DNA of 64,000 nucleotides, from NCBI RefSeq assembly GCF_018279705.1, contig NZ_CP036498.1:3799001-3863000 (forward strand). The letters are read 5' to 3'. Shown one piece after another: positions 45,336 to 48,723 of this stretch. The DNA is from Tardiphaga alba (GTDB lineage Bacteria > Pseudomonadota > Alphaproteobacteria > Rhizobiales > Xanthobacteraceae). Under the pieces are notes generated by a model. The model was not told where the DNA came from, did no database searches, and saw only the letters and a list, made by a program, of their open reading frames with translations. The translations under genes and the position numbers were made by a program. The number at the start of each line of letters is the position of its first letter. Within the stretch, counting starts at the first letter, position 1.

Positions 45336-45379
45336 TGGAGCGGGTAGAGGGAATCGAACCCTCGTATTCAGCTTGGAAG
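45336..45379. repeat. attachment-site-like copy of the tRNA-Gly 3' half
   Basis: These 44 bases are identical to 47697-47740, which run from the encoded CCA through the T-arm to the anticodon loop of the intact tRNA-Gly. Beyond 45379 the sequence no longer resembles a tRNA. A partial tRNA facing a complete one across 2.3 kb is the classic mark of a tyrosine-recombinase element. The stretch 45165-45335 holds nothing else I can name. Confidence 0.85.
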
Positions 45380-45510
45380 TCGCTTAGATCCAAGTTCTCT
45401 ATAAACGCAGATAAGGCATGATAGCGCACTAAACATCACGATTACAACACGTTATCGGCCTTATCCTCCGCACGGAAAATCCCGCCAAATCCCCCAACTA
45501 CACGGACTTC

Positions 45511-45532
45511 TGCGCCCGACCTGCGCCCGAAA
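45511..45532. repeat. 22-bp direct repeat, left copy (possible integrase arm sites)
   Basis: The 22-mer contains two tandem TGCGCCCGA units and recurs exactly at 47573-47594. Each copy lies 100-130 bases inside the 44-bp tRNA-derived repeat. Its position fits arm-type recombinase binding sites. No integrase gene is present to confirm this. Confidence 0.6.
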
Positions 45533-45608
45533 ATCCGGTCAAATTTCCGAAACGGCGTCCATTTTCCGACAGCGAAGTCAAGCGATCGTCGAGCGAGCAG
45601 GCAAAAGA

Positions 45609-45641
45609 AAAGCGGCGCATGGATTGCTCCACACGCCGCTT
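45609..45641 (-). terminator. Rho-independent terminator
   Basis: AAGCGGCG pairs with CGCCGCTT across a 16-nt loop. On the minus strand TTTTCTTTT follows. It lies 21 bases downstream of the small gene at 45663. Confidence 0.75.
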
Positions 45642-45662
45642 AATATTCGAACTCTGCCAGCT

Positions 45663-45842
45663 TCACTTCAGACCGAGCTTGGCCTCCAGCTTCGCCAAAT
45701 CCCGCACCGCCTCTTCCCTCAAATCCTCGGTCTCGGCGTCCTTCACCCGCGCCCGGAAGATCATCAGCAGCTTCTGTGGCAGAGGGATTTTCCGGGCCTC
45801 TTCCTCGGCGGCCCGGACGGGTTTGACGAATAGGATTTTCAT
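45663..45842 (-). CDS. Small helical protein, 59 residues, in the tRNA-Gly element
   Basis: A reading from ATG 45842 to TGA 45665 gives a charged, helix-prone protein starting MKILFVKPVRAAEEEARK and ending AKLEAKLGLK, with a heptad-like KLLMIFRARVKDAETEDL middle. A terminator follows. It is too short for many gene finders. No family is recognised. No good ribosome site is seen, so confidence is moderate. Confidence 0.55.
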   Translation of the reverse strand: MKILFVKPVRAAEEEARKIPLPQKLLMIFRARVKDAETEDLREEAVRDLAKLEAKLGLK

Positions 45843-45940
45843 GCTGCCAGTTTGGCATCACGACGCTGCCGATCCGCGCACATTTGAGTTGCACCACCGC
45901 GGGAATCAACCGATCGTAGACAGTGATTGGGGAGCAACTC

Positions 45941-46510
45941 ATGGACGGCTATCAGTTCACAGCGGCACTTGTCGGGAGCCTTGCATGGCCGGCAGTTGTG
46001 GTCGTTTTGCTCTACCTTCTCCGAAAACAAATCACAGGTCTCGCAGAGCGTCTAAAGGAATTATCCCTTCCTGGAGGAATGAAAGCGACTTTTGAAAAAG
46101 AGCTTCAGGTCGGCCGCGAGATTGTAGAACAAATTCCCGTTGCCCCTGCCCCGCAGTTAGCCCCGCCTGCGCCAGAGGAAGATAACAAACTTCACCGACT
46201 GGCCATTGAAGCCCCAGACGGAGCAATCGTACTGGCATACATTGAACTTGAAAAAACGTTGCGAGACGTAGCAATAAAGCTTGGAATGGGATCGAAGGTC
46301 ACCAATCAACGCTCTGTAATGGAAGAGTTGGTGAAGCGGAATCTGATTTCGCGAGATGCGTCCCGCCTCTTCGACTCATTGAGGCGAGCACGTAACAGCG
46401 CAGCGCACTCTGTTAGCGACCAACAGGTGACCACTCAGGAAGCCTTGGAGTACATTCGTCAGGTAGACTTGTTCGTGCAATTATTGAATTTGGCACAAAC
46501 GCAGCTTTAA
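45941..46510 (+). CDS. Membrane-anchored protein with HEPN-type RNxxxH motif
   Basis: A 189-residue protein. One N-terminal membrane helix lies at about residues 10-30 (GSLAWPAVVVVLLYLL). A charged amphipathic segment and a Pro/Ala linker (VAPAPQLAPPAPEE) follow, then a helical domain from about 75 that holds R151-N152-SAA-H156 in LRRARNSAAHSV. RNxxxH is the catalytic signature of HEPN ribonucleases and also occurs in DUF4145-like proteins. GGGGAG precedes ATG at 45941. It converges on a second RNxxxH protein, both inside the tRNA-Gly element. A defence or RNA-cleavage role is inferred. Confidence 0.78.
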   Translation: MDGYQFTAALVGSLAWPAVVVVLLYLLRKQITGLAERLKELSLPGGMKATFEKELQVGREIVEQIPVAPAPQLAPPAPEEDNKLHRLAIEAPDGAIVLAYIELEKTLRDVAIKLGMGSKVTNQRSVMEELVKRNLISRDASRLFDSLRRARNSAAHSVSDQQVTTQEALEYIRQVDLFVQLLNLAQTQL

Positions 46511-46594
46511 GCAGCCACGAATAAATCAGATTGCTTCGGCGGAGCAGGTTTGACCTGCGCAGCGCGAATACTGTCACTGGCCGTTGCGTGTTTG

Positions 46595-47413
46595 CTACGC
46601 TTTCTCGTCCTTTGGGCCGTTTGGCAATTTTCCCATCAACTCAGACCCAAACAGAAACGCAGAAAAAGCGATTTCATTAAAGTCCGTCGCAGTTATCTTA
46701 AGCCTCTCATTGAGCTTGAATGAGCGCTCCCTCAATGCAATTCGCATGAGCAGCGTAACTTCATCGCTTCCGTCTTCAGCGTTCACAGGGATACCCGTCT
46801 CTATGTCAACTTCCTCGCCACCACGCTCATAGAAAATGCGCACGTAGGGGAACATCAGACGCATAGTTCCTGACCCGTCCACGTCTCGCGCGCCCACTAT
46901 CCCGCCCCGATGTTCAAGGCAGTTTCTAGCATTCTGAAGTGATCGGTATGCATCTGAAAAGTTAAGTGGCTCGGTGAGGCTCTCGTTCACATATTTCAGG
47001 AGGTCAGGGAATTTCAAATCCGACGCACGCTTCTTGAACGGTGCAATAAACTCAGCGAGTGTCGATCCGGATTTTACGCGGTGCGGTTTCCAAGCAATCT
47101 CCAGCAAGAGATAAGCTCGCTCCAGCGACTCCCGAACACCTCGGAGGAGGTCTTGGAATGCTCTGGCTAGTATCCAGCTTTCGTGACGAAGCCGCCGCTC
47201 CGTTGCATCAATATTGATGCCAGCAATCTTGTGCCTGATCGACGTGGAGGTGGTTGCCGGTGACGGCGGCTTCGACAGATCCGCCACAGCTAACGCACCG
47301 AAATACAGATCGACTACTTCCTGACATTGAATTGCAGCAGCATGCGCAGGCACAGCAACGGACTCTCTACGGAGTTCAAGTGCCACGCGCGGCGTCTCTT
47401 CGACTGTCGTCAT
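46595..47413 (-). CDS. Second protein with HEPN-type RNxxxH motif
   Basis: A 272-residue soluble, mostly helical protein. A conserved-looking core SLQNARNCLEHRGG holds R163-N164-CLE-H168, again the RNxxxH pattern. A beta-rich C-terminal third follows (YVRIFYERGGEEVDIETG). There is no signal or membrane segment. ATG at 47413 has only a weak ribosome site. It is convergent with the membrane-anchored RNxxxH protein (85-bp gap) in the tRNA-Gly element. No named family is recognised; a toxin or abortive-infection nuclease is possible. Confidence 0.75.
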   Translation of the reverse strand: MTTVEETPRVALELRRESVAVPAHAAAIQCQEVVDLYFGALAVADLSKPPSPATTSTSIRHKIAGINIDATERRLRHESWILARAFQDLLRGVRESLERAYLLLEIAWKPHRVKSGSTLAEFIAPFKKRASDLKFPDLLKYVNESLTEPLNFSDAYRSLQNARNCLEHRGGIVGARDVDGSGTMRLMFPYVRIFYERGGEEVDIETGIPVNAEDGSDEVTLLMRIALRERSFKLNERLKITATDFNEIAFSAFLFGSELMGKLPNGPKDEKA

Positions 47414-47572
47414 AGATCACAACTTCTCTCGCAGATTCACGCCAATCCGGTCCACTACTTGAAAGAGAGTGCTGCGAACATTCGTCGCGGAGCTGTGTAT
47501 TCAGCTTAGAAATCTAGCGTCTTAAAGCGCGATCCCGAAAATGGAATCAGGATCAAATACTTACGTGAAAAG

Positions 47573-47594
47573 TGCGCCCGACCTGCGCCCGAAA
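47573..47594. repeat. 22-bp direct repeat, right copy (possible integrase arm sites)
   Basis: It is identical to 45511-45532 and in the same orientation, with two TGCGCCCGA units. It lies 102 bases before the tRNA-Gly 3' end. Confidence 0.6.
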
Positions 47595-47696
47595 TGCCCT
47601 AAAACGCTGTGCACAGGGCCAAAACGTCTGCTTGACCGACCCGGCCACCCGTCTATAAGCCTTTGAATTGTCGGGATTTATGGGGGTCGGGACACG

Positions 47697-47770
47697 TGGA
47701 GCGGGTAGAGGGAATCGAACCCTCGTATTCAGCTTGGAAGGCTGCTGCTCTACCATTGAGCTATACCCGC
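47697..47770 (-). tRNA. tRNA-Gly (TCC anticodon)
   Basis: On the minus strand the acceptor GCGGGTA pairs with TACCCGC, the anticodon loop is CTTCCAA (anticodon TCC), the T-loop is GTTCGATTC, and CCA is encoded. Its 3' 44 bases recur at 45336-45379, marking it as an integration target that the element left intact. Confidence 0.97.
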
Positions 47771-47837: not shown

Positions 47838-47946
47838 CGCCTACAGTTTGTGGAGACACCCCACCCGTCTCAAAGCTCGCTGGACGCTCGCTTCTCACCA
47901 CCCTCCCCGCTGCGGGCGGCTACGCCGCGCTTGTGGAAGGGAGAAG
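47838..47946. repeat. Dispersed intergenic repeat (CACCCCACCCGTCT type, copy 1)
   Basis: ACACCCCACCCGTCTCAAAG, then AGCTCGCTGGACGCTCGCTT and CCACCCTCCCC. The same order of blocks recurs at about 48637-48716. Confidence 0.65.
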
Positions 47947-47999
47947 ACCGCGCGAAATTGTTCCTATTTTGTTCTTGACTTAATTCCCTCATTGACTAT

Positions 48000-48540
48000 G
48001 TTCCCTCTCGTCCCGCCTCACTGAGAGGGGTGGTTCGCGATCGTCACGATCTGCGAGGTGGGATGCGGTGACGTTCTCGGGCGTCAGGCGCGACGGGAGG
48101 GCGACAGGGCGGCTGCCACAAGCGCCGTGAGTCATCTTTCCAAGGCGCTGGCGACGATGCCTCGGAGCGCCGGCCAAGTCGTGCCGTCCCGTGCCTAGAG
48201 GCACGCAAGGTCGAGGGTTTTCAGGTCAACCGGCTTGAAAAACAAACTCAACCCTAGGGTGACCAATCAGCACCCGGGAGAGTACGAAGCAACCGGAAGC
48301 ACCATCGCGCACGGAACGCAGGGCACTTGCCTTGTGTCTCCGGACTCCTGGGCGCACTTCCCATGCGGAGTACCGCATCGAAGCGCTTGGGCCATGGGTG
48401 CATCGGGCACCCGGCGTTCCGTGCGCCCTCTTTTCAGAAGAGGGTGAAGGGAATGCGCAAAACTCGGGCGCGCAAGCGCCGCGAGAACGGGATCGCGTGA
48501 GTTCGGGAAATGGCGGGGCTGTTTGACAGTTGAATATGGA
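48000..48540. repeat. Long structured intergenic repeat module
   Basis: The 953-bp stretch 47771-48723 holds no gene I can support. Its middle looks like a long repeat module I associate with Bradyrhizobium-type genomes (recollection, not checked). A perfect 13-bp inverted pair (48307-48319 with 48414-48426, GCGCACGGAACGC and its complement) encloses smaller perfect hairpins such as ATGCGG-AGTA-CCGCAT (48363 region) and GGGTGC-ATCGG-GCACCC. CCTCTT/AAGAGG follows. The whole could fold as a multi-branched RNA or reflect a mobile repeat. Confidence 0.5.
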
Positions 48541-48559
48541 AACGACGCGCCGCGGCGCG

Positions 48560-48716
48560 TGGACTCCCTCCCCTTGCGGGGAGGGTCCCGCCATAGGCGG
48601 GGGTGGGGTGCCCCACGTGACGTAGAGCCTGTGGAAGCACCCCACCCGTCTTGAAGCTCGCTGAACGCTCGCTTCAATCCACCCTCCCCTGTCGCTTCGC
48701 TCCGGGGAGGGAAAAG
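48560..48716. repeat. Dispersed intergenic repeat (CACCCCACCCGTCT type, copy 2)
   Basis: CTCCCTCCCCTTGCGGGGAG, then GGGGTGGGGTGCCCC, ACCCCACCCGTCTTGAAGC and CCACCCTCCCC blocks occur in the order seen at 47838. It lies just downstream of metQ. Confidence 0.6.
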
Positions 48717-48723
48717 AAAGATC

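Follow-up and report, generated by a model that had tools for sequence, protein, structure and literature searches.

A 2,361-bp insert at a tRNA-Gly(TCC) gene of Tardiphaga alba is probably a non-autonomous, site-specific integrative cassette, similar to a cis-mobilizable element (CIME) or a satellite, which would be moved in trans by a foreign integrase and which carries probable defence ribonucleases (RNases). The insert lies in a 64,000-nucleotide stretch of DNA, referred to here as the window (G000:C1:3799001-3863000). The source genome, G000, is a single contig of 5.86 Mb, and its family also includes Bradyrhizobium. By sequence, the cassette is bounded by a duplicated 3' half of tRNA-Gly, has matching arm doublets inside its ends, and contains no integrase gene. 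The same tRNA gene of other genomes harbours relatives, alike in end geometry but with other cargo. The parts of the insert, by window position, are as follows.

45336..45379, minus strand: attachment (att) copy, the 3' half of tRNA-Gly(TCC), left boundary (attL); 44/44 identity with 47697-47740.
45511..45532, plus strand: left arm doublet TGCGCCCGAccTGCGCCCGAAA, a putative integrase arm-type site, 175 nt from the att start; exact copy at 47573.
45610..45641, minus strand: terminator-like hairpin of 14 pairs from a consensus scan, between the p59 stop and the left arm.
45663..45842, minus strand: p59, a 59-aa protein transcribed toward the left arm; homologues at 45-50% identity.
45941..46510, plus strand: protein A, 189 aa, with an N-terminal transmembrane (TM) helix with WP and a putative C-terminal DUF4145-like HEPN domain, R151-N-x3-H156.
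46595..47413, minus strand: protein B, 272 aa, predicted HEPN fold with a beta insertion, R163-N-x3-H168, no known sequence family.
47573..47594, plus strand: right arm doublet, same sequence as the left, 124 nt from the tRNA 3' end.
47697..47770, minus strand: intact tRNA-Gly(TCC); the shared 44 nt (attR) are 47697-47740.

The ends of the insert are marked by a 44-nt direct repeat with 100% identity (45336-45379 and 47697-47740), and the spacing of 2361 gives an insert of 2,361 bp from copy to copy. This repeat is the 3' half of the tRNA, because the tRNA-Gly (tcc) maps to 47697-47770 on the minus strand. The window has two occurrences of its 22-nt core, whereas none of 100 shuffles has one when up to 3 mismatches are allowed, and no third att copy was found within the window at that stringency. 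With this exact repeat the insert retains both attL and attR. An earlier reading of the sequence alone by a model (the original prediction) had proposed a small tRNA-Gly element here, and in this it was right. Between the att copies are p59 (minus), protein A (plus) and protein B (minus), with A and B convergent and 84 nt between them. The tRNA alone reaches a gathering score among the RNA families searched in the region, and the hairpin is only suggestive, since three such hairpins occur in the region against a shuffle mean of 2.6. Inside the right end, 18 nt at window positions 47497-47514 match the att/anticodon-side sequence at 89% and may be left over from an earlier tandem insertion.

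The key to the nature of the element is a 22-nt repeat just inside both ends (45511-45532 and 47573-47594), which the original prediction overlooked. The 22-mer is a doubled 9-mer, TGCGCCCGA. Across 296 genomes of the family there are 3 occurrences of its exact 20-mer, 2 of them within this element; in IMG/VR, 11 stretches contain it. Stretches L127, L128, L132 and L133 each contain two copies of the 20-mer, 274-284 nt apart, and by eye a core resembling a tRNA 3' end lies between them. In L127, L130, L135 and L136 the arm is followed by an integrase-like open reading frame (ORF) similar to the PF00589-positive host locus L073. Two arm copies with a core between them and an integrase-like ORF following, found in stretches of uncultivated phages, are the organisation of a predicted phage attachment site (attP) with arm-type sites. 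In the circularised cassette the arm doublets would lie 299 nt apart in the same orientation, and phage contig L127 has, at the equivalent position of its attP, a sequence with 92% identity to the 39 nt around the left doublet. The position that the phage integrase gene holds beside the left arm is taken by p59 here, in the opposite orientation. We infer that the insertion was made by a phage-type tyrosine integrase. A search with an arm consensus in 8 genomes, which were chosen for these loci, gave 15 matches, 13 of them at this tRNA gene, while the reversed control gave 0; around the remaining 2, 3 kb of sequence contained neither a tRNA nor an integrase match.

Four inserts are complete, with both att copies and an arm doublet at each end: those of G000, G066, G416 and G377. 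They measure 2361, 2962, 1143 and 2531 nt respectively from att to tRNA. Each has its own arm pair in the same geometry and different cargo: the left arm starts 164-175 nt from the att start, and the right arm lies 108-124 nt before the tRNA end. In the one-ended loci G107 and G413 the distance from right arm to tRNA end is 114 and 133 nt. The G066 insert runs from the att copy through an arm doublet TGCGCCCGATGAGCGCCCTA, p59, a protein with a PAPS-reductase domain, a P-loop protein, a 195-aa protein and the same doublet to the tRNA. The best PADLOC matches of its PAPS-reductase-domain protein are SspD (3.9e-23) and BrxP (1.2e-19). The left att copy of G066 is identical to the G000 tRNA, whereas the tRNA at its right end (AGGGGAATCGAACCCCT...) has another T-arm, so the element seems to have brought along its own tRNA 3' half, which is a footprint of site-specific integration. 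The same replaced T-arm stands beside one arm doublet in G107.

The cargo of the other inserts is varied. G416 carries one 201-aa protein that matches DUF7684 below the cut-off, and G377 carries SLFN-AlbA and HNH proteins. In G253, p59 and two arm doublets are accompanied by a methyltransferase-like protein and a HEPN/RES-N domain protein (above the cut-off). The cargo of G413 is a DUF4238 protein, and between the att copies of G434 is a TIR-like protein whose match is below the cut-off. The 195-aa protein of G066 and a 162-aa protein in L234 look HEPN-like, but this was judged by eye only, found no profile support and was set aside.

No integrase was found in the four complete inserts. Their longest stop-to-stop frames are 273, 351, 202 and 369 aa (G000, G066, G416 and G377), no frame gives even a loose match to the catalytic motif, and the long ORFs are otherwise assigned or not integrase-like. 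The absence is claimed for these four arm-bearing inserts only, because the integrase BLAST (15 queries, several in wrong frames) missed an integrase-like 419-aa ORF in L219.

The wider sample of this hot spot is non-random: 80 loci were taken from 146 genomes of the genus Bradyrhizobium, 71 from genomes with at least four tRNA-Gly matches and 9 from genomes with three. The complete inserts of G416 and G377 come from these 80 loci. A further att-like match was seen within the 7-14 kb read in 23 of the 80 loci, a few of them weak (78-86% or 29 nt). At this tRNA gene G432 (L235) also has an insert, whose exact 25-nt arm pair, AGTTGCCACCAAAGTTGCCACCAAA, is a different one; no ORF in its 1.2 kb is large enough for an integrase. 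Because its arm pair is different, integrase-less inserts at this gene may use more than one type of integrase. Side observations at tRNA-Gly(TCC) include the L254 and L260 inserts, where an 11-mer of the TTGTCNGAATG type is common to both ends. L266 (G392) and L260 (G544) are 0.7-kb inserts whose sole sizeable gene encodes a similar 137-aa protein with an N-terminal hydrophobic stretch; the L266 copy has no match in Pfam.

At E<=0.01 the small protein p59 was found in 4 of 296 family genomes (G000, the convincing G066 and G253, and G051, which is weak), in 4 of 265 genomes of the genus Bradyrhizobium (G253 and G413, with G434 and G264 weak), and in 3 of 170 genomes of the order (G000 and two weak). 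The homologues in G066, G253 and G413 are 45-50% identical, and p59 adjoins tRNA-Gly(TCC) in G066, G413, G253 and G434. Beside the left arm, the protein recurs in at least three genomes other than G000. It matches no family, the G066 copy has no match in phage and plasmid records, and none was confirmed in IMG/VR. Weak matches were set aside in G051 (0.005), in G264 (0.009; neither a tRNA nor an att copy is present at this locus, L211), in G617 and G652 (where they lie within long frames), and as weak frames in L115 and L260.

Several observations weigh against a cassette moved in trans. The exact arm 20-mer occurs nowhere else in G000 outside the element, and no arm doublet was seen within about 1.5 kb of the 9 integrases of G000 that score above the cut-off. 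The 23-nt tRNA-Gly core is present in 62 viral stretches, none of which has two copies of GCGCCCGA nearby, so no phage with both core and arms was seen. Among the relatives, G377 has a third arm in the middle of its insert, G253 has no flanking att copy where one is expected, the left end is missing in G413, G434 has two att copies and no arm doublet, and G416 and G377 lack p59. In addition, neither A nor B matches a known defence model in PADLOC above threshold, and B has no match there at all.

Since the cassettes encode no integrase and G000 has none with such arms, the integrase was either supplied in trans or lost later. The latter is the main rival, in which the insert is a decayed prophage or island: it was once autonomous, lost its integrase and most genes, and was left with its ends and two passenger genes, as an immobile CIME in the strict sense. 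Phage-like ends, a host with no matching integrase, the second, degenerate att-like 18-mer at 47497 and the one-ended relatives G107 and G413 all fit such decay. Against this, the four complete inserts keep both att copies, both arms and intact ORFs, and none keeps an integrase or phage genes. The arms match within an element and differ between elements (20-22 nt are identical in G000 and G066), and p59 homologues of 45-50% identity recur in the same position. That the integrase alone was lost several times independently, with both arms retained, is possible, but it is a less simple account than mobilisation in trans. We consider decay rather unlikely, and supply in trans is favoured because the complete inserts keep both arms, matched per element, and intact cargo with no remains of an integrase.

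We also infer that the cassette may be mobile. An integrase that recognises the arms would come in trans, from an infecting phage or from another element. Recombination at the anticodon-side end of the 44 nt would join the circular cassette to the tRNA gene, and excision would be possible again. Next to the left arm, p59 may help, for example as a directionality or recruiting factor. The cargo would pay for its place by protecting the cell.

Protein A seems to be a membrane protein of a described type. Its start was placed at ATG 45941; the upstream GTG at 45923 is not the start site of most homologues. The N-terminus is a hydrophobic helix with a WP signature, and the TM helix was read from the sequence. 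W16-P17 is present in more than 90% of the rows of the A alignment, and WP is found in 14 of 15 aligned loci. The C-terminal part scores 21.6 bits against Pfam DUF4145, below the cut-off of 23.1, and it also matches RiboL-PSP HEPN weakly; 21 of 25 aligned A homologues match DUF4145 at E<=0.01. The motif is RNSAAH at residues 151-156. Of 25 alignment rows, 21 retain its R, N and H, three distant ones lack the motif and one ends differently, and more distant A copies in fetched loci have RNxxxH in 12 of 15 cases and lack it in 3. PADLOC gives weak CARF_HEPN matches only (6e-4), and PHROG 18019, of unknown function, aligns to residues 9-181 (E 2.1e-6). The only sequence relatives with solved structures are four weak, irrelevant matches. 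Protein A has no match in phage records and one in plasmids, on a Sphingobium plasmid at 28%, and neither A nor B has a confirmed relative in IMG/VR.

The sub-threshold DUF4145/HEPN profiles together with the TM-WP architecture support the assignment of protein A to the HEPN type. Membrane HEPN proteins with an N-terminal TM helix and a WP signature were described in 2013 by Anantharaman and colleagues (PMC3710099, section 15). Protein A likewise has a TM helix, W16-P17 and a putative C-terminal DUF4145-like domain with RNxxxH, and compared with that section it shows no essential difference, its score being just below the Pfam cut-off. The membrane anchor of the original prediction agrees with the hydrophobic WP helix. 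The membrane-HEPN type itself is not new, since section 15 of the 2013 paper already contains it.

Protein B belongs to no family that was searched: Pfam, NCBIfam, PHROGs and PADLOC gave no match, no solved relative was found by sequence, and there was no match in phages or plasmids. Its structure model is confident (pLDDT 90.8), and the 13 best structural matches, in a comparison that covers listed families only, are all of the HEPN type. The model thus supports a HEPN-type helical bundle, as the original prediction had expected, with a beta insertion (strands 183-233) ahead of the last helix. It has no predicted TM stretch, and to that extent the prediction of a soluble protein holds as well. 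All 32 rows of the B alignment have the R, N and H of its motif, RNCLEH at residues 163-168. The claim of two RNxxxH proteins of HEPN type is therefore sustained, for A by sequence profiles and TM-WP architecture and for B by structure, with a motif that is conserved in both alignments. Compared with HepT-type HEPN toxins (MntA-HepT, SO_3166; HEPN-MNT pairs), protein B is twice as long, is about 10% identical and differs by the beta insertion before the last helix. HEPN-MNT pairs also include an MNT nucleotidyltransferase antitoxin gene, which is absent from the element and not found beside protein B; the 59-aa ORF matches no family. A relative of B was observed directly after a tRNA-Gly(CCC) in Bradyrhizobium sp. 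149 (L036 7703-8750), with no recognisable second att copy and no arms. A look for exact repeats flanking other A and B loci gave nothing convincing.

It was also proposed that A and B, convergent and adjacent in the window and both of HEPN type, are a two-gene system, either a toxin pair or a toxin with its partner. Among 391 genomes of the family, B was found in 10, A in 22 and both in 3: G000, G158 (where the A match is weak, E 6.5e-4) and G325 (on different contigs). The two genes are adjacent in the window only. The original prediction had itself named genes that never occur together as grounds for dropping the idea, and outside the window this outcome speaks against the pair. The neighbourhoods of 20 B loci and of 15 A loci with a match have no partner gene in common, apart from near-identical Mesorhizobium loci and chance clusters of three to four loci. 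Profile comparison did not detect a relationship between the proteins (probability 1.5%, with the motif alone aligned). Co-occurrence and gene context thus reject a joint system, which we regard as very improbable. Each of the two looks like a stand-alone gene.

Because the cargo of the sister inserts is often of defence type and both proteins are of probable HEPN type, RNA cleavage in defence would be the likeliest function of A and B. Protein A may be a HEPN RNase of the inner membrane, with its TM helix as the sensor of a membrane or entry signal, and protein B may be a soluble HEPN RNase whose beta insertion holds the part for sensing or for the substrate. Each would work independently of the other, by RNA cleavage that halts growth or the invader. 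A different account is that A is a chromosomal-type membrane RNase of stress signalling and B a housekeeping-like RNA-processing HEPN, with no defence role and carried by the cassette by chance. Stimulus-dependent RNA degradation was indeed proposed for TM-HEPN proteins in section 15 of PMC3710099, and relatives of A occur in many unrelated contexts. The patchy distribution (A in 22/391 and B in 10/391 genomes) and carriage on a probably mobile cassette whose sisters hold defence-type genes argue for defence, and make carriage by chance unlikely.

In its genomic setting the cassette is the tRNA-proximal part of a longer piece of extra DNA. For 4 of 12 loci of the same genus, the distance between tRNA-Gly and the block that matches window 16.75-17.96 kb is 0.8-5.0 kb. 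The bulk of window 18.0-47.7 kb is thus additional sequence in G000. The left flank of the cassette has no partner in the genus, and therefore no true empty site was seen. Window 18000-45300, about 27 kb, is absent beside tRNA-Gly in four same-genus loci; by ORF reading it includes a branched-chain ABC transporter, an autotransporter and TonB/FecR-like genes, and by Pfam an MFS transporter. On the other side, window 47850-48720, between tRNA-Gly and the next gene, is a member of an interspersed repeat family, with 85-88% copies at G000 C1:3568274 and C1:4245506 and many shorter pieces in genomes of the genus.

Taken as a set, these inserts might be a distinct, minimal class of mobile element, namely defence cassettes without an integrase, about 1-3 kb long and with a common tRNA-Gly TCC slot, which have phage-integrase arm sites at both ends, exchange cargo freely and borrow phage or other integrases for entry and exit, some with a dedicated 59-aa helper at the place of the phage integrase gene. 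We put this forward tentatively. If the cassettes are moved in trans, defence genes could spread on DNA that is too small and bare for integrase-based tools, and the family would be a natural test of the minimum that a mobile element requires. The arm doublet is a precise search handle, and protein B adds a sequence family to the HEPN superfamily, unmatched here by the four collections searched.

No description of such cassettes was found in the literature, among open-access papers only. In the parts of the sources consulted, three kinds of element come closest. In the tRNA islands of S. meliloti (PMC11476347), tRNA genes are hot spots in rhizobia, as here, but all site-specifically integrated elements had an integrase gene, which the cassette does not, and the smallest phage-related sequence was 3.24 kb. 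Phage-inducible chromosomal islands (PICIs) and P4 satellites (PMC10111431) share with the cassette a small size, tRNA-type integration, defence-like cargo and a phage-like att organisation. As described there, they carry their own integrase and usually a regulator and replication genes, none of which is in the cassette. CIMEs (PMC5704250) are described as decay products of integrative and conjugative or integrative and mobilizable elements (ICEs/IMEs). Like them, the cassette keeps attL and attR, has no integration or transfer genes and sits in a tRNA 3' end. It differs from that description in that the inserts here are tiny, with phage-like arm doublets and swappable cargo, and several have a conserved 59-aa protein, which suggests that the cassette set is a lineage of its own, unlike the decay-derived CIMEs.

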